In this document: piece by piece, positions 2,958-19,850 of the stretch | How the letters are laid out: the number at the start of each line of letters is the position of its first letter | Numbering within the stretch: the first letter of the stretch is position 1 | IMG/VR virus record: IMGVR_UViG_3300028600_000022 | Coordinates: 1-20,070 of that record | DNA: 20,070 nt | DNA from: a virus | Reading direction: 5' to 3' (one strand) | The notes under the pieces: generated by a model | The model's database searches: none | Seen by the model: only the letters and a program-made list of their open reading frames with translations | What the model was told of the DNA's origin: nothing | Translations under genes and position numbers: made by a program

Positions 2958-4396
2958 TTGCCGCACTGGCTCCGCGCTGGCACCTCAAGCGAGAGCTTGC
3001 GCGCCTGGCGGTCAAGCGGCTCTACCAAGCCGCGCAGCCGTCGAACGCGCGCCGCACGCCGACCGACTGGCGCTCTGGCGATGCTGTGATGGACCAGGCG
3101 CGGGCGAAGCTGCGGCAATGGTCCAGGCACCTCGACGAGAATCACGATCTCTCGCACAGCATCCTGGATACCCTTTCATACCAGTCGAGCCAGGTGACCA
3201 TCGCGCCGCGGGTTATGCTGCGCAACGGTGACCCGGCGGAAACGGTGAACGACGATCTGCGCGCGGCGTGGCTCGACTTCCGGGACGCGCTCGACTCGTC
3301 AGGCCTGATGCCGTGGTGCGTGCTGTCGAGCGTCACGGCGCGAACCTGGCTGCGCGATGGCGAGGCGTTCGCGCAACACGTGCTTGGGGCTGACGTCGCC
3401 TATCCGACCGCGTTGCCTTACATGCTCGAAGTGCACGAGCCCGATCTGGTGCCGTTTGACCTGATCCAGTCGAACCCGAAAATCATCCATGGGGTCGAGG
3501 TCAACCGATTCGGGCGCCCGCTGGCGTATCACCTGTACCGCGAGCACCCGGGGAACAATCTTCGATCCGCTGCCATTTCCACGGGCACCGTGCGGGTGCC
3601 CGCCGAGCAGATGACGCACCTCGCGCAGCGCTCAAGGCTGGGCCAGCACCGCGGCGCAAGCGTGCTGGCGTCGGCGATCACTCGGCTCGCTGACATCTCG
3701 GATTACGAGGAAAGCGAACAACTGGCCGCGAAGGTCGCAAGCTCTTTGTGCGCGGCGATCACGCGGGGTGCTGATTTCACGAGCACTAGCACTACCCTCG
3801 ACACGGACTCGGGCGAGCGGCCGCTGGAGCTGCAAGGCGGGATGATTTTCGACAACCTGATGCCGGGCGAGAAAATCGAAGTGCTCGACACGAACCGGCC
3901 GAATACCGGTCTCGGCGACTTCCGGCGTGCCATGCTGCGCGCGGCCACGGCCGGGATCGGCGTGAGCTACTCGACCGCGACCCACGATTACGACGGAACG
4001 TACAGCTCACAGCGACAGGAGCTGGTCGAGATACGGCAAACGTACGACTTCCTGCGCGAGCACTACCGCGCCGCGTTCCTCAAACCCGTATGGCAACGTT
4101 TCGTGCAGGCGGTGCAGCTCGGCGACCTGGTGACGCTGACCCGTGGCGATCCGAAAACACTGTTCGACTTCGATACAACGCCGCCGCCAGCGCCCTGGAT
4201 TGACCCGGCCAAAGAGGCGAAAGCGGATGAAACGTCGATCCGCGCGGGCATCGAGTCGCGTCACGGAATTATCCGCAAGCGAGGCGGCGATCCTCAACGC
4301 GTTGATGATGAGCGTGAGAGCGACGCGCCCGAACCAGTCGTGACGCCGGCCGCCGCCGACGATCCGCCACAATTAGAGGTCGTGTCCAATGTATAG
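2945..4396 (+). CDS. portal protein (lambda gpB family)
   Basis: A 483-aa dodecameric portal forming the DNA channel at one head vertex. The N-terminus (RRTPTDWRSGDAVMDQARAK, about 36-55) and HLDENHDLSHSILDTLSYQS (62-81) match the lambda portal family opening. Further typical stretches are the RTWLRDGEAFAQHV core and the region with AATAGIGVSYSTATHDYDGT followed by SSQRQEL. The GTG start has GAGGG at 2933-2937 with 7-nt spacing. It overlaps gpW by 13 nt and the protease-capsid gene by 8 nt. The C-terminus is an acidic, Pro/Ala-rich tail, as is usual. It is slightly shorter than lambda gpB (533 aa). Confidence 0.93.
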   Translation: MGGLIAALAPRWHLKRELARLAVKRLYQAAQPSNARRTPTDWRSGDAVMDQARAKLRQWSRHLDENHDLSHSILDTLSYQSSQVTIAPRVMLRNGDPAETVNDDLRAAWLDFRDALDSSGLMPWCVLSSVTARTWLRDGEAFAQHVLGADVAYPTALPYMLEVHEPDLVPFDLIQSNPKIIHGVEVNRFGRPLAYHLYREHPGNNLRSAAISTGTVRVPAEQMTHLAQRSRLGQHRGASVLASAITRLADISDYEESEQLAAKVASSLCAAITRGADFTSTSTTLDTDSGERPLELQGGMIFDNLMPGEKIEVLDTNRPNTGLGDFRRAMLRAATAGIGVSYSTATHDYDGTYSSQRQELVEIRQTYDFLREHYRAAFLKPVWQRFVQAVQLGDLVTLTRGDPKTLFDFDTTPPPAPWIDPAKEAKADETSIRAGIESRHGIIRKRGGDPQRVDDERESDAPEPVVTPAAADDPPQLEVVSNV

Positions 4397-6263
4397 CGCA
4401 CCCGGAATGAATGAGGTCCTGCGCGAAGCGAACACCGTGACCGTCACGGATCACCGTGAGCTGGTCGCGACCCTGGAACGGTCGATGATCGACACGGAAG
4501 AACGCACCGTGCCGGTGACCATCAGTACTGCCGCGGCGCTGCCCGGCCCGTCCGGGATGCTCGAAGTACTACGGCACGACAGCGACTCGATCGATTTCTC
4601 CCGCGCTGAGAACGGATTGCCGTTGCAAGTGGCGCACGACTCGCGGACGCTGCCGGTGGGGCGCGTGGAGCGGCTGCACCTGGTCGGATCGAAGCTGCGC
4701 GGTGTGGCCCGATTTTCCAGATCCGCGCGCGGTAGCGAGGCCTGGCAGGACGTGGTTGACGGGATCCTGTGCGACGTCAGCATCGGCGCGCAGGTAGCGC
4801 GGAACAGTTGGTTACAGGAGGGGGAGACGCTTTTTGCAACGCGTTGGACTCCTTATGAGGTTTCACTGGTCGCGAGCGGGGCTGATCCCGGCGCGGGCAT
4901 CAATCGGGAGCATGAGAAAATGAACGAACCCACGAATGGGACCGGTGGCACCGGCAATGCGGAAAACACCGGAGAGGCGATCGCCGCACTGTTCGCGGGG
5001 CTCGATGGCGAACAGTGGCTGACCATGGAGCGCGACGCGCTGCGCGCTGGCGACAGTGTCGACCAAGTGCGAACCCGGGTGCTCGATGCGCTGAAGGCGG
5101 ATGCGGCGCCGCGCACCTCGCGCGACACCGTCGACATCGTCGCGGGCGCGGATTCCATGGAGAAGTGGACTGATCAGTGCGAGCGCGCACTGGATGTGAA
5201 GCTCGGGCTTCGCAAGTACGACCGCACCGAGATGCAGTCGAACGAGCTGTCCGGCATGACGTTCCGCGAGATGGCACGCGACTACCTGCGCCAGCGTGGG
5301 CTGTCGAGCACCGGTCTAAACGCTGAGAAGCTGATTTCTCGCGCGCTGAGTGTGCCGGCGCTGGTGCGGTCAAACTTCGCGCACAGCACGTCGGACTTCG
5401 CGAATCTGCTCGGCAGCTCGGCAGAGAAGGCGCTTAGCGCCGGATACACCGAGGCGCCGGAGACGTACGCGGCGTGGACTCGTAACGTGAACATGGCGAA
5501 TTTCAGGCAACATACGTTCACTAACCTTTCGCTGTTCGGCGATCTCTCACAGGTGCGACAGCTGGAGGAGTACAAGTCGGGGACGTTCAGCGACCGCGCA
5601 GAGACGGCGACGCTCGCGACCTATGGCAAGCTGTTCGGGATCGCGCGCCAGGCGCTGATCAACGATGATCTAAACGCCATGGTGGACGTGCCGAGAAAGA
5701 TGGGCCGCGCCGCGGCGCGTCAGGTGGGCGACTTGGTTTACAGCATCATCACAACCGACGCGGTGCTCAGCGACCAGGCGGGCGCGACGCTGTTCAACAC
5801 GACGGACGGCACGCTTGCCGCATCGGCCACGGTCATTGACACGGCGAACATGAGCATCGCGCGTACCGCACTGCGCACGCGCACCGATCCGAGTGGTGCC
5901 ACGCTCAACGTGCAACCGGCGTATCTGCTGGTTCCTGCTGCTATCGAGACGGTCGCGCAAGTGTTCCTTGCGACCGCGCAGGCGCCCGGCGGGAGCAATA
6001 ACGACGTCAACGTGTTCGCCAATTCGATGCAGCTCGTGGTCGAGCCGCGGCTGGACGCTGACGATGTAAACGCTTGGTATGTCATGGGTGCGCCAGGCGG
6101 CGAGGTAGAGACCGTTGTGGTCGGATGGCTCGATGGGCGACAGGAGCCGTTCTTAGAACAGGAAGAAGGATTCACGGTCGACGGGATGCGGTACAAGGTG
6201 CGAATAGACTGCACCGCGGCTGCGCTCGATTGGCGCGGCATGTATCAAAACGCGGGAGCTTGA
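4389..6263 (+). CDS. prohead protease / major capsid protein fusion
   Basis: A 624-aa polyprotein. Residues about 40-172 are an HK97-type (U35) prohead protease: VAHDSRTLPVGRV carries the likely catalytic His83, and DVSIG carries Ser131, with YEVSLVASGADPGAGI at 156-171 typical of the family. Residues about 178-330 are a charged scaffold-like delta domain, and about 330-624 are the capsid protein, with a Mu gpT-like or HK97-fold look. The protease would act inside the prohead, removing scaffold and itself. ATG has AGAGG at 4375-4379. An in-frame ATG at 4920 (Met178) with its own GGAG would make a protease-free 447-aa scaffold-capsid form. Family and domain limits are from memory. Confidence 0.9.
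   Translation: MYSAPGMNEVLREANTVTVTDHRELVATLERSMIDTEERTVPVTISTAAALPGPSGMLEVLRHDSDSIDFSRAENGLPLQVAHDSRTLPVGRVERLHLVGSKLRGVARFSRSARGSEAWQDVVDGILCDVSIGAQVARNSWLQEGETLFATRWTPYEVSLVASGADPGAGINREHEKMNEPTNGTGGTGNAENTGEAIAALFAGLDGEQWLTMERDALRAGDSVDQVRTRVLDALKADAAPRTSRDTVDIVAGADSMEKWTDQCERALDVKLGLRKYDRTEMQSNELSGMTFREMARDYLRQRGLSSTGLNAEKLISRALSVPALVRSNFAHSTSDFANLLGSSAEKALSAGYTEAPETYAAWTRNVNMANFRQHTFTNLSLFGDLSQVRQLEEYKSGTFSDRAETATLATYGKLFGIARQALINDDLNAMVDVPRKMGRAAARQVGDLVYSIITTDAVLSDQAGATLFNTTDGTLAASATVIDTANMSIARTALRTRTDPSGATLNVQPAYLLVPAAIETVAQVFLATAQAPGGSNNDVNVFANSMQLVVEPRLDADDVNAWYVMGAPGGEVETVVVGWLDGRQEPFLEQEEGFTVDGMRYKVRIDCTAAALDWRGMYQNAGA
4907..4922 (+). promoter_or_regulatory. internal ribosome binding site and start for protease-free capsid form
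   Basis: GGAG at 4907-4910 is nine bases upstream of an in-frame ATG at 4920-4922 (Met178 of the fusion), exactly at the protease/scaffold boundary. Lambda uses a nested in-frame start (C/Nu3) for a similar purpose. Initiation here is inferred. Confidence 0.5.
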
Positions 6264-6266
6264 ATC

Positions 6267-6629
6267 ATGGCAACGAATTTTCAGCAAAACGGCGCCACCA
6301 TCAACTACACCGCTGCTGCGGCCGTCACGAGCGGGGACTTTATCGCGCTTCCGGCCGCAGGTACGGGGATGAAGATGGTCGGCGTCGCGACGGTGAGCGG
6401 TGTCACCGGAGACGTGATTCCGTTGATGACGGAAGGCGTTTTCACGGTCTCGACGAAGGTCGCGGCGGCGGGCGCCTGGGTGATCGGTGATGACATCTAT
6501 TTGACCGCCACCGGGGACTTCACCGAGACCGCGACGTCCAACGGATACGCGGGCGTCGCCTGGGAAGCGGCGGCGACTTCGGCGACCACGGGCGTGGTGC
6601 GGATCAACTTCGGCGGCGACCCGCGGTAA
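6267..6629 (+). CDS. capsid cement/decoration protein (DUF2190-like)
   Basis: A 120-aa, Ala/Thr/Gly/Val-rich beta protein in the lambda gpD position, expected to stabilise the expanded capsid. The N-terminus MATNFQQNGATINYTAAAAV, the central VGVATVSGVTGDVIPLMTEG and the closing VRINFGG resemble DUF2190 proteins, which typically follow prohead protease or capsid genes. SD GGGAG is at 6254-6258, 8 nt before ATG, and only three bases separate it from the capsid stop. It is followed by a terminator, so it probably closes the head transcription unit. Confidence 0.8.
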   Translation: MATNFQQNGATINYTAAAAVTSGDFIALPAAGTGMKMVGVATVSGVTGDVIPLMTEGVFTVSTKVAAAGAWVIGDDIYLTATGDFTETATSNGYAGVAWEAAATSATTGVVRINFGGDPR

Positions 6630-6696: not shown

Positions 6697-7146
6697 ATGG
6701 CACAGGGTGACGTCACCGTATACGACGCCGCGATTTCGGAGTGGTTGCAGGGGAACCTGGGCGATCTCGCTGCCGATGACATTCGGATCGCGTTCACGAC
6801 AAGCACGTTCACGCCCGTTGCGACTGACGCGCTTCCGTACTACACCGGGGGATCGGGAACCACGGCGATCAGCAACGAGACAACCGGCGGGGTGATCAGC
6901 GCGGGCGGTTACGTGTTCACCACCGAGGCGGTCAACGGGATCACCGGGGGCGCGAATTTCGACACCGAGGACATCTCGATTGCGGCGAACGGGGCGAACC
7001 CGTCCGCGGTGCGTTGGGGGTTCCTGTACAACAACACGCTGGCCACGAATCGCGGTTTCGCGTTCCTTGACTTCGGGACCGATCAGAGCTTTGTGTCGGG
7101 TTTCACCATCACGATCAATTCGGGTGGCTGGTTCACGATAACTTGA
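6697..7146 (+). CDS. probable virion protein, function unknown
   Basis: A 149-aa protein rich in Thr, Gly, Ala and Asn, with an N-terminal helix (YDAAISEWLQGNL) and then beta-type sequence ending GFTITINSGGWFTIT. The layout (short helix; DDIRIAFTTSTFTP; a Gly-rich middle; WGFLYNNT; FLDFG; a final strand) resembles small conserved phage structural proteins encoded between head and tail genes, but I cannot name a family. AAGGGAG at 6683-6689 gives a good start. It is the first gene after the terminator, and its stop overlaps the TTG start of the lipoprotein gene (TTGA). Confidence 0.75.
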   Translation: MAQGDVTVYDAAISEWLQGNLGDLAADDIRIAFTTSTFTPVATDALPYYTGGSGTTAISNETTGGVISAGGYVFTTEAVNGITGGANFDTEDISIAANGANPSAVRWGFLYNNTLATNRGFAFLDFGTDQSFVSGFTITINSGGWFTIT

Positions 7147-7250
7147 GACGTTGCGCGCCGATCTTCGCGCTGGGTGTGGCGGTGGGAATGGTTTTGCTTT
7201 CTATCCTCCAGGCGTGCGCCGATCTCTCGATCGCTACGCTGTTCAAATGA
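7143..7250 (+). CDS. very small lipoprotein
   Basis: A 35-aa ORF starting with TTG that overlaps the previous stop (TTGA at 7143-7146), so probably translationally coupled. MRRC begins it; a hydrophobic core spans about 7-22; LQAC at 22-25 is a lipobox with Cys25 as the acylation site. The mature peptide would be only 11 residues (CADLSIATLFK). Gln at -2 is less usual but tolerated. Candidates are a short outer-membrane spanin-like or lysis lipopeptide, or a superinfection-exclusion lipoprotein; none can be chosen from sequence. The gene after it has a clear AAGGAG at 7251-7256. Confidence 0.55.
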   Translation: MRRCAPIFALGVAVGMVLLSILQACADLSIATLFK

Positions 7251-7262
7251 AAGGAGTGCCGA

Positions 7263-7499
7263 GTGGATATTGAATCGACGCACAGCATCGAGTTCGCGGT
7301 CAATATCATCGAGCACGACGTGCCCGATGGGGCCGCGAAGGTGGTCAGTCAACAATTTTGGGGGTTCGATGGCGCGTACGGAAACGTACCGCGCGAGATG
7401 GTCGTCGAGGTGCAGGCGCTCGGCACCGAGTTCCTGTCTTCGCTCGTGGACCTGGGCAAGAGTTACAACTTAGAGAAGCGCGCTAAGAAGGACGCGTGA
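7263..7499 (+). CDS. hypothetical 78-aa protein
   Basis: I do not recognise a family. The protein is soluble, with no signal peptide or membrane segment, acidic in the first half and ending in a basic tail (EKRAKKDA). FAVNIIEHDVPDG and a Phe/Gly-rich centre (QQFWGFDGAYGN) stand out. The GTG start has AAGGAG at 7251-7256 with 6-nt spacing. It sits between a lipoprotein and a holin-like gene, so a lysis-related or head-accessory role is possible but not shown. Confidence 0.65.
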   Translation: MDIESTHSIEFAVNIIEHDVPDGAAKVVSQQFWGFDGAYGNVPREMVVEVQALGTEFLSSLVDLGKSYNLEKRAKKDA

Positions 7500-7501
7500 G
7501 C

Positions 7502-7666
7502 GTGCAAGGCAAAAAGACATACATGCTGGCGCTCGCCGCAGTGCTCGCGGGTATCGCTGGCTACATGCAAGGCCAGCTCGATCTACAGCAGGCGCTCGAA
7601 TCAGTGTGGGCTGGCGGCGTGGCCGCGGCGTTGCGTCACGGGCTCGCGCGTGCCGGGTTGAACTAA
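7502..7666 (+). CDS. holin-like small membrane protein
   Basis: A 54-aa ORF with a GTG start and AAGGA at 7488-7492. KKTYMLALAAVLAGIAGYM (about residues 4-22) is one membrane helix after a basic N-terminus; a second weaker hydrophobic or amphipathic segment (about 33-46) is followed by LRHGLARAGLN. This layout, with a short KGKKTY-type opening, an Ala/Gly helix and an alpha-helical tail ending near RHG, resembles small phage membrane proteins usually annotated as holins or unknown. A role in making membrane lesions for lysis is inference; no endolysin gene is next to it. Confidence 0.6.
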   Translation: MQGKKTYMLALAAVLAGIAGYMQGQLDLQQALESVWAGGVAAALRHGLARAGLN

Positions 7667-7684
7667 TGTGAAGGAGTTGTTCCG

Positions 7685-7987
7685 ATGGCGACGTATGCAG
7701 AAATTGTCAACCTATTATCCGATCCGGCATACCAAGGATTGAAGGACAGAACCGCGGTAGCTTCGAGCGTGAAGGCGCACGAAGTCTCCCAGGCGCCGAC
7801 TCCGAGCGCAGAGGCAAAGGCCTGGGCGGTTCGCGCGCTCACAAATCCGCGCGAAGAGTCGGAAGTGATCATAAACTTCGTTCTGGCCGCGAACGTTGCG
7901 GCGACTGCGACGCAGATATTGACCGCCAATGATGCGACGCTGCAGGCTGCAGTAAATGACGCGGTCGATACGCTTTTGGGGGCCTAG
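7685..7987 (+). CDS. conserved phage protein, function unknown; source of a 91-nt inverted copy
   Basis: A 100-aa mostly helical, soluble protein starting MATYAEIVNLLSDPAYQ, with AKAWAVRALTNP and FVLAANVAATATQILTANDA further on. I recall similar small proteins encoded near phage head and tail fibre genes, with no known function. GAAGGAG at 7671-7676 gives a clear start. Bases 7715-7805 (codons 11-41) occur again, perfectly and in reverse complement, at 19351-19441. Because this gene has the intact family-like frame, it is the likely source of that copy. Confidence 0.75.
   Translation: MATYAEIVNLLSDPAYQGLKDRTAVASSVKAHEVSQAPTPSAEAKAWAVRALTNPREESEVIINFVLAANVAATATQILTANDATLQAAVNDAVDTLLGA
7715..7805 (+). 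repeat. 91-nt inverted repeat, source arm
   Basis: Identical over 91 of 91 bases to the reverse complement of 19351-19441, checked base by base. The match stops at both ends (7714 and 7806 differ). It lies wholly inside the 100-aa gene at 7685-7987. Confidence 0.97.
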
Positions 7988-7989
7988 TA

Positions 7990-8499
7990 ATGGCAACATC
8001 ACAAGCCCAGATCAACGTCGGCACTGGCGTCAAATTCAACGGGGAGGCTGGCGCAGACGTTGCATTCTCTATGGAGGCTGTCGCGTCTGCGGCGGGGCGG
8101 GTTTCTGCGCAATACGATCTTGGCGCGTCGCCGCGGGACTTTCTGTTCATGTGGCACGGCGAGCTGTTGATGCAGGCAACGCCGACGCAGTATCGGACCA
8201 TCGACTTCTATGCAGCCGGAGCTTACGACGCCGATGCGACCATGATATGGGGCGACGTCGGGGCAACGGATGCGGCGCTCGGTGACGAGGACCAGTTGCG
8301 TAATTTGCTTCAGATCGGCAGCGTGGTTGTCGAGGAAGCGAACACGACAAAGATGGTTGGTGGGGGACGGTTCTATTGGCCGCATCGCTACATCAGCATC
8401 GTTGGCTTCAACAACTACACCGGCGCGACAATCAACGCGACTGATTCCAATTTTCTGTTCTTCCTGCAGCCGTACAACATCCAAGGGCAGGCCACCTAA
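7990..8499 (+). CDS. probable virion protein, function unknown
   Basis: A 169-aa beta-rich protein. Features are MATSQAQINVGTGVKFNG at the start, LRNLLQIGSVVVEE in the middle and FYWPHRYISIVGFNNYTGA near the end. The last pattern (P-RY-hydrophobic-V--N-TG) is one I associate with small virion-surface or fibre-associated proteins in phages, without a named function. It begins three bases after the previous stop, and its TAA overlaps the next ATG by one base (TAATG). This suggests coupling with the LamG adhesin, of which it may be a partner. Confidence 0.7.
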   Translation: MATSQAQINVGTGVKFNGEAGADVAFSMEAVASAAGRVSAQYDLGASPRDFLFMWHGELLMQATPTQYRTIDFYAAGAYDADATMIWGDVGATDAALGDEDQLRNLLQIGSVVVEEANTTKMVGGGRFYWPHRYISIVGFNNYTGATINATDSNFLFFLQPYNIQGQAT

Positions 8500-10178
8500 T
8501 GCTCGTCGAGCTTCCTACCGATGACTGGAGCTTTGCGCCGCGCGTCACTGAGGCGCGCATCGACCGCGGGAAGCCGCTTGCCCGGCGCTTGCAGTTTGCG
8601 ACGATACCAGGCGACCGACCGTTTAATCTGGTTACAAAGACGTTCTGCTACGGGGTAAGAACCGGAGCAAAACCTGTCGGCGGTGAGTCAGGTACTGCGC
8701 TGCGCTTTGGCGGTGCCGCGAGTGGCGACAACTTCAGGTTTTCGGACGCAAGTCACAGCATCGGAAGCAAATACACTGGCGCGCAGTCGATTGTGCAGGT
8801 GCCGCATACCTGGGTTTTCCGGTTCAAGGCGCTCGCGGTATCCACGCGCGGTGGCCTGATGCAGTACACCGACCAGGATGCAGGCAACTCGGGGCTGTAC
8901 GCGTTTTTAGAGGGAGCGGACTCTACGGCGCGGTATTCAGTTTCGAACAGCGGTTCAAATTACACGTCAAGCCCCACCTACACACTCAATAAATGGCACA
9001 CCGTCGCGTTCACATACGATCCGGTCTCTAACAAGCTGAACAGCTATCTAGATGGCAAGCGCGGCACAGAGGCGACCGAGGCAAGTCCGACAACGAACAC
9101 ATCAATCTCGCGGTTTTTGATTGGAGACTGCTTCGCTGGGTTCGATCGGGAGCTCGACGGCGAAATTAGTTTATTCGCATTTTGGGACCGCGCGCTCACA
9201 CCAAGCGAAGGCCGCTTCCTGACAAATGGCGATAACTGGCTGACGCTGTTCGAAGGTGAGCAATCGGTATTTTTCCCGGCCGAATCAGCGGGTGCGGGCG
9301 GGTTTACCACGACCCTCGAAACCAAGGCGATCGGCGACCAGGCGCAGATCACCGGGCTGATCTCTGCGCTCGACGTGCTCGCGAAGGCGGGGCTTGTGCA
9401 GAGCACAGGCCTGGTCACCGTGCTCGATGCACTGGCGTCGACCGGCCAGGCTGCCGTGACTGGGCACGTGACGACCCTCGACGCGCTGACGAAGCTCGGG
9501 CTTCAGGCAAGTTTCCCGGGCGTTGCGGGTTTCGCGACCGTGCTCGACGCGCTGACGGCTGCCGGCCAGGCCGCTGGCACTGGTCACGGGACCGTGCTCG
9601 ACGCGCTGACGGCGGCGGGGCTTCAGCAGAACCTGGGCGCGGTCGGCGAGTTCACGACCGTTCTGGATTCACTGAGCGCTGCCGGACAGGCCGCGGCGCT
9701 TGGCCTGATCACCGCACTGGACGCTTTGACCGTCACGGAGCGCGCCCAGGCGCTCGGATTCATCACCAGCGTCAACACGCTGGACGCTGACGGGCTCAAT
9801 CAGAGCTTCGGCGGGGCTGGGTTCACGACCGCCCTGAAGGCGTTAGCGGCCGCTGGGCTCTCCCAGGGGATGACCATCTGGGACCTCGGCGACGCGCTCG
9901 CCGCGGCATATGCCGATCTGCCGGCGTTTTTCGACACGTTCGGATTTTCCGAGCCGGTGGTAGTCGGGGCTGTCACCGTGCGCGGACTGTTCGATGATGA
10001 TTCGGTCGAGAACGGGGAGCTGGCGGGGCCGCAAGTCATGTTGCAGGTGGGCGACGTGGACACGCTCGGCATCGACCAGGGGACAGAGATCACCATACGC
10101 GGGCGGGCCTTCTACGTGGCTGGGGTACAGCGCGACGGGCTTGGCCTGGCGAACGTTGTGCTGCGTGATACTTCCTGA
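8499..10178 (+). CDS. LamG adhesin / tandem repeats / gpFII-like head-tail connector fusion
   Basis: A 559-aa protein with three parts in one continuous frame. Residues about 85-245 look like a concanavalin/LamG fold (WVFRFKALAVSTRGGLMQYT; KWHTVAFTYDPVSNKLNSYL; GEISLFAFWDRALTPSEGRF), which usually binds sugars or surfaces. Residues about 268-457 are around nine 17-23-aa repeats with the core TVLDALTAAGQAA. Residues 458-559 (MTIWDLGDALAAAY; FSEPVVVGAVTVRGLFDDD; GTEITIRGRAFYVAGVQRDG) resemble lambda gpFII-type connectors. The next gene is gpZ-like, as expected after FII. An in-frame ATG at 9870 with AGGGG directly against it could start a separate 102-aa connector. Domain calls are by pattern only. 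Confidence 0.8.
   Translation: MLVELPTDDWSFAPRVTEARIDRGKPLARRLQFATIPGDRPFNLVTKTFCYGVRTGAKPVGGESGTALRFGGAASGDNFRFSDASHSIGSKYTGAQSIVQVPHTWVFRFKALAVSTRGGLMQYTDQDAGNSGLYAFLEGADSTARYSVSNSGSNYTSSPTYTLNKWHTVAFTYDPVSNKLNSYLDGKRGTEATEASPTTNTSISRFLIGDCFAGFDRELDGEISLFAFWDRALTPSEGRFLTNGDNWLTLFEGEQSVFFPAESAGAGGFTTTLETKAIGDQAQITGLISALDVLAKAGLVQSTGLVTVLDALASTGQAAVTGHVTTLDALTKLGLQASFPGVAGFATVLDALTAAGQAAGTGHGTVLDALTAAGLQQNLGAVGEFTTVLDSLSAAGQAAALGLITALDALTVTERAQALGFITSVNTLDADGLNQSFGGAGFTTALKALAAAGLSQGMTIWDLGDALAAAYADLPAFFDTFGFSEPVVVGAVTVRGLFDDDSVENGELAGPQVMLQVGDVDTLGIDQGTEITIRGRAFYVAGVQRDGLGLANVVLRDTS
9301..9868 (+). repeat. tandem coding repeats in the adhesin/connector gene
   Basis: About nine imperfect units of roughly 51-69 nt. 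They encode variants of G-F-x-T-x-LDAL-x-AAGQAA and are visible in DNA as recurrent CTCGACGCGCTGACG. Unit length varies through short insertions such as SFPG and NLGA. They likely form an extended helical or solenoid stalk between the LamG and connector parts, and are a possible site of unit-number change by slippage. Confidence 0.8.
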
Positions 10179-10807
10179 TGGCTTCCAGGACGCTCTCTCT
10201 CTCCCGGGGCCGTGGCGCTGTGTCCGTCGAGCTGCTCGGCGGCGCTGCGACCATCGAGGCGCTCGTGGCGGTAAGCAAAGACGCCGAGCGCTCCCAGGCG
10301 TCGGCCATCCGTGCCGCCGCGGTCACCGCGCGCTCGCTGGTGATCAAGGATCTGGCGAAGCAAACGGGGGTCAAACAGAAGGCGTGGCGCAAGCGAGTGG
10401 GGCAATTCCCGACGCGCCGCGCCCAGGGCCTGGCCGTGCGAAAGCTCTGGGTCGGGCTCAAGAACCCGCCCGGCGCCAGCTCGGGGAAGCATGTCGAGGC
10501 GCTGATCAGGAAAAGCAATCCGGACGCGTTCGAGGCGAAGATGCCGAGCGGGCATCGGGGCCTGTTCAGGCGGCGCCGCAAGACGATCCCGTTCGGGCCC
10601 GGGGCGCGGGACCATCCGAAGGAGCGCCGCAGCCTGCCGATCGACGAGGCGAAGCTGGACGTTTCCGGCGTGGCCGAGCCTGCATTGTTGAAACGTGCGC
10701 GCGAGGTGATGCGCGGGCGTTATGTTGAGGTGTTGGAGAAAGAGTTCTTAAGGCGCACGTCACGGTCAATTTCAAAGAACAAGGCCCGACGCAAACGAGG
10801 ACGATGA
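10178..10807 (+). CDS. gpZ-like minor tail / tail completion protein
   Basis: A 209-aa, very basic protein in the lambda FII-Z position. Typical gpZ features: an N-terminal helix with many Ala/Arg (AAAVTARSLVIKDLAKQTGV), KLWVGLKNP, MPSGHRGLFRRRRK and then RRSLPIDEAKLDVS, ending in a helix and an Arg/Lys-rich tail. Lambda gpZ is 192 aa and is needed for correct tail completion and DNA entry. ATG overlaps the previous stop (TGATG). No separate gpU-like tail terminator gene is visible between this and the tube gene, so this protein may also cover that step; that is inference. Confidence 0.8.
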   Translation: MASRTLSLSRGRGAVSVELLGGAATIEALVAVSKDAERSQASAIRAAAVTARSLVIKDLAKQTGVKQKAWRKRVGQFPTRRAQGLAVRKLWVGLKNPPGASSGKHVEALIRKSNPDAFEAKMPSGHRGLFRRRRKTIPFGPGARDHPKERRSLPIDEAKLDVSGVAEPALLKRAREVMRGRYVEVLEKEFLRRTSRSISKNKARRKRGR

Positions 10808-10808
10808 A

Positions 10809-11192
10809 ATGGCAATTCAAGGCACTGGGATAACTATCAGCTATCAGTCCGGCTTCCTGGCTGAGATCCTCGACTTCACATGGTCGGGCATCTCGCGAGA
10901 GTCGATCGATACCACAAACTTCGCGACCACCGGGGCGCGCGAGTCGATGCCGAGCACGCTCTACGATCCGGGCGAGATGCAAGTCGAGCTGCTTTTTGAT
11001 GCGGAAGTCTCGCCGATCACGGCGATCGCTTCGGCTGCGGAAACGGTGACCGTGACTTACTCCGATCCGGCGCCCGCCTCGACCATGGCCGCGTCCGGGT
11101 TCATGACCGAGTTCGAGATCAACGCGCCACTTGAGGACCGCGTGACCGCTACCGCTACCCTCAAGCTGACCGGCGCGATCACGCACGGGTGA
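10809..11192 (+). CDS. major tail tube protein
   Basis: A 127-aa beta-rich protein expected to stack as hexameric rings around the tape measure. The features are those of short tail tube proteins: ISRESIDTTNFATTGARESM at about 34-53, LYDPGEMQVELLFDAE, then TVTYSDPAP, and a final strand ATATLKLTGAITHG. It is about half the length of lambda gpV (246 aa), lacking the extra Ig-like domain. GAGGA at about 10797-10801 precedes ATG. It lies directly before the chaperone pair and tape measure, the standard order. Confidence 0.85.
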   Translation: MAIQGTGITISYQSGFLAEILDFTWSGISRESIDTTNFATTGARESMPSTLYDPGEMQVELLFDAEVSPITAIASAAETVTVTYSDPAPASTMAASGFMTEFEINAPLEDRVTATATLKLTGAITHG

Positions 11193-11195
11193 TGC

Positions 11196-11501
11196 ATGGC
11201 GTTCAAGACAATGGCCGTGAAGGTCAGCGGGGACGTCTATCACCTGCGTGAGCTGAGCGCGGGCGCTATCGAGTGCGTCGACGACGCGCAAAGCGAGTAT
11301 GTTCAGGCCTTGACCATGGTCGCCTTATCGCTTTGCGACGATAACGGCCTCCCCATGTTCAAGCCGCGCCCGGACGCGGTCGACGCCGCGCTGGATATGG
11401 TGCGCAAGATGCCGGTGAGCCTGGTCCGCGACTACCTGATCCCGGCGGCGACGACGCTCAACACCGAGGGCGGGAGCCTGGACGATGCACGGGGAAACTA
11501 A
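11196..11501 (+). CDS. tail assembly chaperone gpG-like
   Basis: A 101-aa protein that would bind the tape measure and tube subunits during assembly. It opens MAFKTMAVKVSGDVYHLREL, has a helical middle, and ends at TAA 11499-11501. Its position between tube and tape measure, and the slippery G GGA AAC just before the stop, identify it as the G half of a G/GT pair. By a -1 shift about one ribosome fraction would read on into the next frame to give a 212-aa fusion. The start is close behind the tube gene stop, with only a weak Shine-Dalgarno, suggesting coupling. Confidence 0.85.
   Translation: MAFKTMAVKVSGDVYHLRELSAGAIECVDDAQSEYVQALTMVALSLCDDNGLPMFKPRPDAVDAALDMVRKMPVSLVRDYLIPAATTLNTEGGSLDDARGN
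11492..11498 (+). promoter_or_regulatory. programmed -1 ribosomal frameshift site (G GGA AAC)
   Basis: In the gpG frame the codons are CGG GGA AAC TAA, so GGGAAAC is a correct X XXY YYZ slippery heptamer, next to the stop. Lambda uses G GGA AAG at the same place. After slipping, reading continues CTA ACC CGG CCA GTG without a stop into the gpT-like frame, which is open to 11833. Confidence 0.88.
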
Positions 11502-11509
11502 CCCGGCCA

Positions 11510-11833
11510 GTGAGGCAGTTTGCGTTTCGCCTGGCGCTCAAGCTGGGGCGCTGGGACGTGGACGCTTTGCTGGCCGAAATGCCGCGCCGTGCGTTCCTCG
11601 AATGGTTGGCCTATCACGAGATGGAGCCGTGGTCGGAAGATCGCGCCGACGCTCGCGCGGCCATCGTGTCGTGCCTGATCTACAACGTGAACCGGCGCCG
11701 CGGGGCGCCCGCGAAGCGCCCGGGCGATTTCATGGCGTATCGGGCGCCAAAGCGAAAGATGGCGCCGGACAAGCGCGCGCTGTTCCGCAAGATCATGGAG
11801 GGCCTGCCGCGTGCCGACTCTGACCAGTCTTAA
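11510..11833 (+). CDS. tail assembly chaperone, gpT-like extension of gpGT
   Basis: A 107-aa frame in -1 relative to gpG. Its sequence (FRLALKLGRWDVDALLAEMP, then FLEWLAYHEMEPWSEDRADA) is characteristic of the T part of lambda-type G-T chaperones. It is most likely made as the C-terminal part of a G-T fusion from 11196, entering at 11498, rather than from the GTG at 11510, which has no good ribosome site. The fusion would be 212 aa. Its last 23 nt overlap the tape measure start. Confidence 0.85.
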   Translation: MRQFAFRLALKLGRWDVDALLAEMPRRAFLEWLAYHEMEPWSEDRADARAAIVSCLIYNVNRRRGAPAKRPGDFMAYRAPKRKMAPDKRALFRKIMEGLPRADSDQS

Positions 11834-12935
11834 CGTTCTATTGAAGGGCGACGCGTCCGGGCTGGTGAAGGCGACCCGGGTGGGCCTGGGCGCGCTAAAG
11901 GGTTTTGGACGTGCTGCGGGCAAGGCGGTGGCCATCACGGGTGCGCTCGGGGCTGCCGGGATCGGCGGCGCCGCCGCCGGCCTGGTCGCGCTCGGCAATG
12001 CCGCGCGCAGTTCGATCGACGCGCACGCGAAGAACGCGGCCCGGCTCGGGCTGACCGTCACCGAGGCGCAGCGACTCAAGCAAGCCGCAGAGCAAAGCGA
12101 CGTGTCGATGCGGACGCTTAACACGGCGATGGCGGGGCTGACGCGAGAGGCGGGCCTTGCGGCCGCGGGCAGTGCAAAGAGCGCGGCGAAGTTCACCGAT
12201 CTGGGGCTGTCAATGGACGACGTCGTGAAGGCGTCGCCGCTGGAGCTGCTGCAGATGGTCACGCGTGAGCTAGGCGCGTCCCGCAACTTCGCGGATCGGG
12301 CGGCGAAGGGTAATGCGCTGCTCGGGGAGTCGTGGCTCAAGCTGAACCCGTTGATCGAGAGCGGCACGGAAGCGTTCGCCGACGCTGACGTGATATTCAC
12401 AAAGCTCGGGCTCGGGATCGGAAAGAATGCCGGCCAGGTGGAGGTGTTCAATGACAAGCTGGATTCGCTGTCCAGGCTGGGAACCGCGTTGCGTGACAAG
12501 GTGTTTGCGACGCTCGCGCCGCGCCTGGCGGAATTCGCGACGGCACTGTTCGATTCCGCGGCCGCGTTCATCCAGGCGCAGGGCGGCGGCGAGGCGTTCG
12601 CTAACACGCTCGGCGAGGGCCTGGTGAACGGGATCCGCTCGGCTGTCAAGTGGTTCGGGGGGCTCAAAAGCGCGATCGATGGCGTGCTCACCGTGGCCGG
12701 GTTCCTGGTCGACGTGCTGCAGGGGATCGGGACGTTCGGCGCCGGAATTGCGGCGGCTGCGGGCGCGTTGATACAGGGGAATTTCTCCGGCGCCGGCGCG
12801 GTGCTCTCTGCAATTCCCGGAGACGTTGCCGGCCAGTTCGGCGAGGACACCTCAGAGGAGCAACTACAGGAGACAAAGCGCCAGACGACCGTGCTCGAAG
12901 ACATCTTGAGAAACGCGGCGCCGGCCTTCCAATGA
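11811..12935 (+). CDS. short tail tape measure protein
   Basis: A 374-aa protein setting tail length and probably forming part of the DNA-entry channel. Helical, Ala/Gly-rich sequence with a hydrophobic segment near 38-62 and another near 285-315, and long helices between (TEAQRLKQAAEQSDVSMRTL). It lies directly after the G/GT chaperones. GTG has GGAGGG at about 11796-11801. Lambda gpH is 853 aa; scaling by length predicts a tail under half as long. The N-terminal and central pattern (ARLGLTVTEAQRLKQAAEQS) is common in small tape measures. No lysozyme or peptidase domain is seen. Confidence 0.85.
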   Translation: MPTLTSLNVLLKGDASGLVKATRVGLGALKGFGRAAGKAVAITGALGAAGIGGAAAGLVALGNAARSSIDAHAKNAARLGLTVTEAQRLKQAAEQSDVSMRTLNTAMAGLTREAGLAAAGSAKSAAKFTDLGLSMDDVVKASPLELLQMVTRELGASRNFADRAAKGNALLGESWLKLNPLIESGTEAFADADVIFTKLGLGIGKNAGQVEVFNDKLDSLSRLGTALRDKVFATLAPRLAEFATALFDSAAAFIQAQGGGEAFANTLGEGLVNGIRSAVKWFGGLKSAIDGVLTVAGFLVDVLQGIGTFGAGIAAAAGALIQGNFSGAGAVLSAIPGDVAGQFGEDTSEEQLQETKRQTTVLEDILRNAAPAFQ

Positions 12936-13726
12936 CACGCATATCAAAAGACATGCTAGACGGCGAGGTGGTCCTGTCGACCAAGGGCGACCGCGCTAGA
13001 CGATCGTTCCAGGTGACAGAGCTTGTCGGCGCCGACTTCGCGCGCCTTGTTTCGGCTGCGAAGGCAAGCGGATTGCCGCAGAAGGGCGAGCCGCATCCGG
13101 CGCTGTCAGGCGTGCGTGTTCTCGACGTCACCGCGCGACCTACAAACGATCCGTCGATCGCTATCGTGGACGTTGACTATGGCGTTCCGAGCGCGTCGGA
13201 TATATCCAGCAGCTCGGACGGGGCCGAGGTCTCCATTACGGCGAGCCTGATCACCGAGGAGACTACGAGGGACATTTTCGGGAATTTTCTGCGCACGACA
13301 TGGACCTTCCGATTCTCGACGGCCGATCCGGGCGATCCGGACGGCAACCGGTCGATTCAGGAAGCGACGCTAAGCTCGAACATTCATCGGCTGGAAGTGC
13401 AAGTGCCGACGTTTAGCGTTCAGTTTACGCGCATCGAGAAAAGCCCGCCGCTGGCGCTGACGCGCAAATTTTCGGGAAAAGTAAACTCGGGCGCGTTTCT
13501 AAATGAGAGCCAGGACGCGTGGCTGTGCACGATCTCGAGCACGCAGCAGGGGCCGAATGAGCACCGCGTCGTGTATTCTTTCACGTTCAACCGGCGGGGC
13601 TGGCAAGCGATCCTTACCCATACGGTAGACGGCGTGATCCCGGAGGACTTGACCGCGGACGGGGTGCAGGTGAAGCAAGTCTATTCGCGCCGTAATTTTT
13701 CATCGCTCGGGCTTCCAAAGATATGA
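12932..13726 (+). CDS. tail-region protein, function unknown
   Basis: A 264-aa protein, ATGA-coupled to the tape measure. I do not recognise it. It is mainly beta, without membrane segments or signal peptide, with stretches such as GVRVLDVTARPTNDPSIAIV, LRTTWTFRFSTADP and EHRVVYSFTFNRRGWQAILT. From its place right after the tape measure it is the best candidate for a distal-tail or tail-tip protein, a slot filled in lambda by gpM/gpL. It overlaps the next gene by ATGA at 13723-13726. Confidence 0.75.
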   Translation: MTRISKDMLDGEVVLSTKGDRARRSFQVTELVGADFARLVSAAKASGLPQKGEPHPALSGVRVLDVTARPTNDPSIAIVDVDYGVPSASDISSSSDGAEVSITASLITEETTRDIFGNFLRTTWTFRFSTADPGDPDGNRSIQEATLSSNIHRLEVQVPTFSVQFTRIEKSPPLALTRKFSGKVNSGAFLNESQDAWLCTISSTQQGPNEHRVVYSFTFNRRGWQAILTHTVDGVIPEDLTADGVQVKQVYSRRNFSSLGLPKI

Positions 13727-16142: not shown

Positions 16143-16463
16143 ATGCCGGCGCCGGGCGACTTGCGGGCACTGGTCGCCGGTGGTCTTTCGGCCGCAGCCG
16201 TCGCCATTGCCGCGCCGTACGCGATCCCAGAGGTGGTGCGCCCCGATCCGTTCCTCGGCGCGGATGCCGAGAAGCTTCGCGCCGAGTTGAGCGAGACTTT
16301 CGAGCTGGAATTACGACTGCTACGTGCCGAGCTGCGGCTTCAGCTCCCACCAGAACCGACGCGCCTTCGAATCCAGGCACTGGAGGATGCCGTACGGGAG
16401 CTGCAGCCGACTTTCCGGCCGCCCACAAGCCGTTTCTCCCGGTGGGGCGGTCCGGACCCGTAG
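16143..16463 (+). CDS. membrane-anchored coiled-coil protein, spanin-like layout
   Basis: A 106-aa protein with one N-terminal hydrophobic helix (about residues 8-26, LVAGGLSAAAVAIAAPYAIP), then a charged coiled coil (about 38-65 and 73-89: EKLRAELSETFELELRLLRA) and a basic end. This is the layout of an inner-membrane spanin (Rz-like), which would complete lysis at the outer membrane, but other anchored coiled-coil proteins look the same. I found no nested lipoprotein (Rz1-like) partner in the other frames here. It begins three bases after the fibre stop, with no good Shine-Dalgarno. Confidence 0.6.
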   Translation: MPAPGDLRALVAGGLSAAAVAIAAPYAIPEVVRPDPFLGADAEKLRAELSETFELELRLLRAELRLQLPPEPTRLRIQALEDAVRELQPTFRPPTSRFSRWGGPDP

Positions 16464-18823: not shown

Positions 18824-19092
18824 CAGACAAAGAAAAAGTGCACTACGCGGGGCTATATCACTTGAAACGCCATCCAGGCAGACCATGCGCGTGCGAGTTC
18901 TCGGACGACAACGGCGACACCGTGCTGAGCTGGTGCGAGTTCCACAAGGAGCTGCGTGAGCGCATCGCGGAGCTGAAGAACATCATTTTAGAGGCACCGC
19001 ACCATGAAGATTGCGCGTCACTAATTTGGGAAAGTGGCACGCCGCGCTCACCGTGCGATTGCTGGAAGCGCAAGGCACTGGAGGACGGGTGA
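18820..19092 (+). CDS. cysteine-rich protein A (one H-C-CxC module)
   Basis: A 90-aa protein. The N-terminal part carries CAC (23-25) and WCEFH (38-42), a possible zinc site. The C-terminal module, about 46-90, is RERIAELKNIILEAPHHEDC, then SPCDCWKRKALEDG: a helix, His61/His62 and Cys65, and CxC at 79-81, a probable metal-binding fold. The same module ends the 252-aa gene downstream (97.8% identical DNA) and occurs in divergent form in its first part. ATG overlaps the previous stop (ATGA) with GGAGG at 18811-18815; its TGA overlaps the next ATG (TGATG). No family name known to me. Confidence 0.75.
   Translation: MTDKEKVHYAGLYHLKRHPGRPCACEFSDDNGDTVLSWCEFHKELRERIAELKNIILEAPHHEDCASLIWESGTPRSPCDCWKRKALEDG
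18955..19092 (+). repeat. 138-nt direct repeat, copy 1
   Basis: Matches 19713-19850 without gaps at an offset of 758 bases, 135 of 138 identical; the three differences lie in the segment gcgtcactaattt versus gcgttactatatt. It encodes the last 45 residues of cysteine-rich protein A and the stop. Confidence 0.97.
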
Positions 19093-19850
19093 TGTCTAGT
19101 GAACTACACATACCGACAGAAGTTGCGGACGCCATGCGTGCATTGCGGCCTGAGCTTAGGAAAAAGCTATCGCTGCGTGACATTGACGATATGACGCGGC
19201 CGTTCCGCAAGCGCATCGAGGAACTGAAGGATGCCATCCGCAAAGGCCCTCACCAGATGGGGTGCCACAGTCTTCAGAAACCGAATACCCCAGGATGGGC
19301 GAGCTTGGAACTATGCGACTGTTGGAAGCGCAAAGCACTGGAGGGCGAGTTCGGAGTCGGCGCCTGGGAGACTTCGTGCGCCTTCACGCTCGAAGCTACC
19401 GCGGTTCTGTCCTTCAATCCTTGGTATGCCGGATCGGATAAGATGTCTCATCGTGACAGGCTAGAAATGTGGCACCTTGCGGTAAGTGAAGGCGAGCCGG
19501 AGCCAGAATTACTCTTTGACCTTGCAGAAAGTGCGGTAGTGCGCATCGAGGAGCTGGAGGCGGCCGCGGATGCTGTGGCGAGAATTGTCGAGTACGAGCT
19601 ACGCGGTAACATGGATTCAGTATGCGATGACCCGCGGTGCCACGATTCGCAGGTGCCGATAGACGACGGAGCGCGGCTCGCTCTATGCGGAAGGTGCGCG
19701 TTGATTCGTGCCCGTGAGCGCATCGCGGAGCTGAAGAACATCATTTTAGAGGCACCGCACCATGAAGATTGCGCGTTACTATATTGGGAAAGTGGCACGC
19801 CGCGCTCACCGTGCGATTGCTGGAAGCGCAAGGCACTGGAGGACGGGTGA
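19092..19850 (+). CDS. fused cysteine-rich protein (two genes joined by an inverted insert)
   Basis: A 252-aa ORF that appears to be two genes. Residues 1-86 hold a divergent module (RRIEELKDAIRKGP equivalent at about 40-53, with H54, C58 and CDCWKRKALEG at 75-85). Residues 87-117 are encoded by the inverted 91-nt copy and are out of keeping with their surroundings. Residues 118-252 start with ATG at 19443 and carry C178/C183, C199-x-x-C202 and a final module (208-252), nearly identical to protein A. Removing the insert gives GAG TGATG TCT, a stop/start overlap like that at 19090-19094. Start ATG 19092 overlaps the previous TGA. Function unknown; zinc-binding is inferred. Confidence 0.7.
   Translation: MSSELHIPTEVADAMRALRPELRKKLSLRDIDDMTRPFRKRIEELKDAIRKGPHQMGCHSLQKPNTPGWASLELCDCWKRKALEGEFGVGAWETSCAFTLEATAVLSFNPWYAGSDKMSHRDRLEMWHLAVSEGEPEPELLFDLAESAVVRIEELEAAADAVARIVEYELRGNMDSVCDDPRCHDSQVPIDDGARLALCGRCALIRARERIAELKNIILEAPHHEDCALLYWESGTPRSPCDCWKRKALEDG
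19351..19441 (-). repeat. 91-nt inverted copy of 7715-7805 inserted at a gene junction
   Basis: 91 of 91 bases equal the reverse complement of 7715-7805. Flanks are unrelated (19350 T against C; 19442 G against T). It sits between the T and the GATG of an apparent ancestral TGATG junction. On + strand transcripts this segment is antisense to the mRNA of the 100-aa gene at 7685-7987. Confidence 0.97.
19713..19850 (+). repeat. 138-nt direct repeat, copy 2
   Basis: The second copy of the repeat at 18955-19092, ending with the same TGA. The bases after the stops differ (TGATG against TGAAC). Crossing over between copies would remove 758 bases and leave one intact module gene. Confidence 0.97.

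Follow-up and report, generated by a model that had tools for sequence, protein, structure and literature searches.

A gpFII-type stopper domain sharing one open reading frame with LamG-like and tandem-repeat regions in an uncultivated tailed phage, a possible neck adhesin

The window analysed here is the whole of positions 1 to 20,070 (20,070 bases) of IMG/VR record IMGVR_UViG_3300028600_000022, and it derives from an uncultivated tailed phage. Its gene order is lambda-like, with a small and a large terminase followed by a portal, a protease-capsid fusion containing a capsid protease domain (4389-6263), a cement protein, accessory genes, ORF 8499-10178, a gpZ-like gene, a tail tube gene (starting at 10809), a chaperone and a short tape measure. 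The capsid cement gene (6267..6629; PF09956, E 2.9e-18) forms the left border of the accessory region, in which are found the genes for a phrog_644 protein (6697..7146) and for a cassette protein directly preceding the LamG domain (7990..8499). All three lie on the + strand, as do the following ORF (8499..10178) and the gpZ-like gene (10178..10807). The ORF encodes 559 aa that read as a LamG domain, nine tandem repeats and a gpFII-type stopper. A first-pass annotation of the sequence had placed all three in the same frame, and the frame is indeed single and open throughout. The stopper-encoding ORF is located between the cement gene and the gpZ and tail tube genes, as are gpFII-type genes in general, and the next gene encodes a gpZ-like tail completion or Neck1 protein (phrog_27, E 1.9e-17), in agreement with the syntenic position before gpZ that had been proposed for the connector.

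The stopper, or head closure protein Hc1, corresponds to residues 458-559, including an N-terminal docking helix (9870..10175, +). Phage_attach (PF05354) matches residues 472-551 with E 2.4e-8 in the whole ORF (40.6 bits against a cut-off of 26) and with E 4e-10 when the last 102 residues are taken alone; the PHROG family phrog_82, 'head closure Hc1', matches with E 1.4e-8, and a profile built from the stopper alignment retrieves gpFII (1k0h) with E 9e-12. An AlphaFold2 model built from 23 aligned sequences exceeds a pLDDT of 90 over most of residues 481-559. Its best fold matches in the PDB are the R4C stopper (8gtf, Z 10.8) and lambda gpFII (Z 10.2 for 8k37, and 10.3). These alignments cover 88-94 residues, within model residues 462-559, and start at residue 462-469; the docking helix therefore belongs to the fold match, and by fold comparison the domain spans about residues 463-559. 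Matches to viral 3C proteases, with Z about 6, were attributed to a small barrel of common type and not taken as a sign of kinship. By sequence profiles and predicted fold, the C-terminus of the ORF thus contains a gpFII-type domain, a beta-sandwich with an N-terminal helix, which does not make the protein an ordinary gpFII. The assignment of the last 102 residues in the first-pass annotation is thereby upheld, and the predicted structure, which might have turned out unlike gpFII, resembles it. The known gpFII- and R4C-type stoppers (Hc1; PF05354, phrog_82) share with this domain the sequence family, the predicted fold with its docking helix and the position between capsid genes and gpZ. However, they are usually small stand-alone proteins of about 100-120 residues with only the helix or a short N-terminal extension, whereas the domain of the window follows 457 residues that hold LamG and the repeats.

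The repeats occupy residues 286-457 (9354..9869, +). Nine units of 18-22 residues with an LDAL core can be distinguished, the first eight being 18, 18, 22, 18, 22, 18, 18 and 21 residues long and the ninth running into the stopper. Self-similarity at lags of 18, 40 and 58 residues is 0.82, 0.97 and 0.73, while the maximum of 500 shuffles is 0.18. About nine LDAL-x-AAGQAA repeats had been annotated; the number holds at the protein level, but the full motif fits some units only, and what the units have in common is a T-x-LDAL core. At the DNA level, Tandem Repeats Finder detects no array in the repeat region, which indicates that the repeats have diverged. Modelled alone from a single sequence, they reach a pLDDT of about 46, too low for a confident fold. 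The LamG or concanavalin-like domain is matched by Laminin_G_3 (PF13385) at residues 112-237 (8832..9209, +) with E 1.3e-14 and 55 bits against a cut-off of 27.6. It probably starts nearer residue 95 than 112; in a fold comparison, residues 95-213 match pentraxin and laminin LG domains weakly (Z 5-6.6), with a model of low pLDDT. Pfam searches of the ORF at E values up to 1, from which weak relatives could escape, returned only laminin G, pentaxin and Phage_attach families and no match to BppU.

Relatives were gathered by scans with the capsid protein, which yielded about 90 contigs. An iterated profile found about 66 stopper matches among them, essentially all in stand-alone ORFs of about 90-150 aa. 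Of the close capsid relatives, two, L002 and L003 (capsid identity 67% and 66%), have contigs extending well past the capsid gene, and in both a repeat gene lies directly 3' of a phrog_644 gene. In L003, eight units of a different repeat (ANLAQWSWTPNAA...) run without a stop into VFRTGDAQTQALADLATFIDDTG, which aligns ungapped over 23 residues to IWDLGDALAAAYADLPAFFDTFG of the window's stopper helix. This alignment scores 45, a value attained in 10 of 10,000 shuffles but in none of 1,843 control segments. The contig of L003 ends 30 residues into the stopper, so the fusion is not seen complete there, and that of L002 ends inside its repeats; an exact scan intended to extend L003 found only L003 itself. 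The repeat-stopper joint thus recurs with a dissimilar repeat in L003 and is complete only in the window. Such a shared joined frame with dissimilar repeats in two phages is as expected if selection keeps the fusion.

Adhesin-like genes also occur as neighbours in the relatives: L003 has a separate LamG gene (E 6e-13) and L016 a glycine-rich protein. Among viral contigs and GenBank phages, the stopper and the whole ORF had no close relatives or only weak partial matches, with no GenBank phage matching the ORF, and a scan with gpZ gave only L016 (= L129) and L130. Searches with PF05354 covered about 770 distinct bacterial genomes, in samples of which two overlap almost wholly, and gave about 100 matches in open frames of up to 485 aa. 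No coding stopper fusion was present among the 22 longest open-frame regions inspected; these were out-of-frame read-through of upstream genes, separate stoppers or unrelated proteins. Since the roughly 66 stopper matches among the relatives and the 22 bacterial frames are stand-alone or spurious, such a fusion must be rare, and it may have arisen as an accident confined to this lineage.

The reading that we favour, with somewhat more confidence than doubt, is that the ORF gives one uncut polypeptide of 559 aa, a stopper ring subunit whose N-terminal repeat-LamG part is an adhesin arm, present in six copies per virion. At 8499, the ATG overlaps the upstream stop codon, and its anti-SD pairing amounts to -7.5 kcal/mol, most structural genes having about -6 to -10. 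The codon-position G+C shows a coding pattern in one frame across the whole ORF. The first-pass annotation had pointed to an internal ATG (9870..9872, +) as a separate connector start. Were translation to start there as well, the ring would consist mostly of a free stopper of about 102 aa, long copies being few or absent, and the LamG-repeat region would be a fibre gene that lost its stop. This is rather unlikely. The ATG is indeed placed where the stopper domain begins, nearly all stoppers stand alone, LamG-repeat proteins with their own stop exist as separate genes in the unrelated phages L100, L101 and L132-134, and a mixture of long and short subunits could be imagined to ease steric crowding. 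In addition, a fibronectin-like, beta-rich, fibre-like gene in L130 (L130:2-1347) directly adjoins a stand-alone stopper gene, the stop of the one overlapping the start of the other, an arrangement that is plausible as a step before fusion. Yet the ATG at 9870 has almost no Shine-Dalgarno sequence: its pairing within the usual spacing range is -2.4 kcal/mol, and a G run touches the ATG. L003 lacks an ATG at the joint, where it has just GTGs with a weak SD, and yet no stop is present there; independent stop losses in two phages with different repeats would be unlikely. The idea that this ATG is an ancestral start kept in the alignment was dropped, as stand-alone stoppers mostly begin several residues later. 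Taken together, the start signals and the L003 joint favour one protein over two, the case for which the first-pass annotation had foreseen several adhesin copies protruding from the neck, with some internal initiation being possible from a start that is weak.

A polyprotein that is cut, with the stopper entering the neck and the LamG-repeat part being released or attached elsewhere, for example as a head or tail fibre, is improbable. Phage structural proteins are often processed, the capsid protease domain of the fused gene 4389-6263 would be at hand, and the stand-alone LamG-repeat proteins of other phages fit a separate fate. Against this, no linker separates the repeats from the docking helix in either the window or L003, and a neck protein would be an unusual substrate for the capsid protease. 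That two genes were joined artificially through the collapse of a repeat or an erroneous base is hardly credible, for although the contigs of both L002 and L003 end within their repeats or shortly after them, a region evidently hard to assemble, the same joint is found in L003 from another sample, the codon-position G+C is continuous from repeats to stopper and matches the core genes, and the repeats are too different in DNA to collapse.

If the ORF is translated as a single 559-residue protein, a possible architecture of the neck can be outlined. The C-terminal 97 or so residues would, by analogy with lambda and R4C, form the hexameric stopper ring, and the conserved N-terminal helix would dock this ring on the adaptor ring. 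In R4C, the N-terminal helix of the stopper contacts two adaptor subunits (PMC10276861). The residues before the docking helix would then make up six arms, with the nine repeats as a stalk and LamG at the tip. It is plausible that material before the helix exits outside the neck; the extended shape of the arms, their number, their outward display and the binding of a ligand are what we infer from this arrangement. The LamG fold and the known neck passage structures suggest that the arms may act as accessory adhesins, keeping the virion close to glycans of the host or habitat during the search of the tail tip for its receptor.

Several known systems invite comparison. The arms predicted for the window phage would resemble the neck passage structure (NPS, or collar-whisker) of the lactococcal phages 936 and TP901-1, in which a stalk at the neck bears a domain of carbohydrate-binding type. 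The NPS attaches to cells through many copies of carbohydrate-binding modules that bind weakly (PMC6669499), and its binding domains are exchanged between phages (PMC10684548). The lactococcal NPS, however, is a protein of its own, in a proposed 18 copies, that combines a BppU-like ring domain at the N-terminus with a coiled-coil fibre, whereas in the window phage the attachment ring would be the stopper itself, with the adhesin N-terminal and no separate collar ring. T4 fibritin (wac), the XM1 collar spikes (gp40) and the phi29 appendages (gp12) also are fibres or spikes at the neck or collar, but they are separate proteins on the collar or connector and no fusion to a head-closure protein (PMC10491603). 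In the open-access literature, we found no description of a stopper fused to an adhesin. Neck appendages as such are already known; what would be new is an adhesin built into the stopper, as read from the sequences of one complete and one truncated example. The closest likeness of the N-terminal part is to the cassette proteins of L100, L101 and L132-134, in which a LamG-like domain is likewise followed by repeats of about 20 residues amid the same small cassette neighbours, but there the gene ends after the repeats without a stopper domain.

These cassettes bear on the origin of the parts. The 7990-8499 protein is 71% identical to its counterpart in L100 and about 57% to those of L132-134, phages with portal and capsid genes unrelated to those of the window. 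In each of these four phages, the gene that follows encodes the stand-alone protein (556 or 536 aa), which is LamG-like in its N-terminal part and also contains the tandem repeats; BLASTP no longer aligns it with that of the window. The third-position G+C is 0.66 in the LamG half, 0.82 in the repeats, 0.78 in the stopper, 0.78-0.82 in the core genes and 0.72 in the 7990 gene. The repeats and the stopper thus match the phage core genes, and the LamG half differs. Given this difference in base composition and the 71% identity of the preceding gene to that of an unrelated phage, LamG looks like a later import. The occurrence in L003 of the fusion with another repeat indicates that the repeat-stopper fusion is probably older than the window phage. 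Judged from these sequences, the repeat-stopper fusion probably arose first, and LamG would have joined it later with a mobile adhesin cassette.

The small genes in question, namely phrog_644, a 100-160 aa protein, the 7990 family and the LamG-repeat protein, form a mobile set near head or neck genes in unrelated phages (6697-8499 in the window, L100:6001-9108, L132:8085-11097). Large families of tandem repeats of about 20 residues (DALTLTEFAADVNAE, TPGTWSWSGTTGAF, TEVITLTENAATIN) also lie beside phrog_644 in the environmental phages L096-L117, for example at L115:8836-10335, L105:7740-10371 and L101:6628-8088; no family model assigns a function to them. The three phages L132, L133 and L134 come from the same sample, 3300020045, and have portals that are 95-97% and LamG-repeat genes that are 90-94% identical. 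Their large terminases are only 24-30% alike where alignable, and all end in an IQIPVGSWM tail; terminases have been swapped here next to a constant portal.

A more general proposal, which we put forward tentatively, is that a lineage of environmental siphophages mounts exchangeable neck adhesins on the stopper ring, a conserved stopper receiving dissimilar repeat stalks, with or without a LamG tip, to give six arms at the place where the genome is retained. If this were so, a core assembly protein that seals the genome would also carry an adhesin, the number of arms would be fixed by the ring, and the neck would physically couple adhesion to genome retention. Phages would have, in the N-terminus of the stopper, a natural site that tolerates large fusions, and the fixation of mobile adhesin cassettes in the virion would have an explanation open to testing.

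Some further features of the window concern its tail genes and right end. In the region 10178-13726, the tape measure has just 374 aa and no lambda-type hub or tip protein was recognised, and there is no separate gpU-like gene between gpZ and the tail tube gene; these traits suggest that the tail is short and minimal. Similar small membrane proteins are encoded after the tail genes in the window (16143-16463) and within the head-neck accessory region in L002 (L002:9312-9650) and L003 (L003:7826-8065). From this difference in position, genes seem to move between the site downstream of the tail and the accessory region. At the right end, a direct repeat (18955-19092 and 19713-19850, offset 758) duplicates a short cysteine-containing C-terminus.
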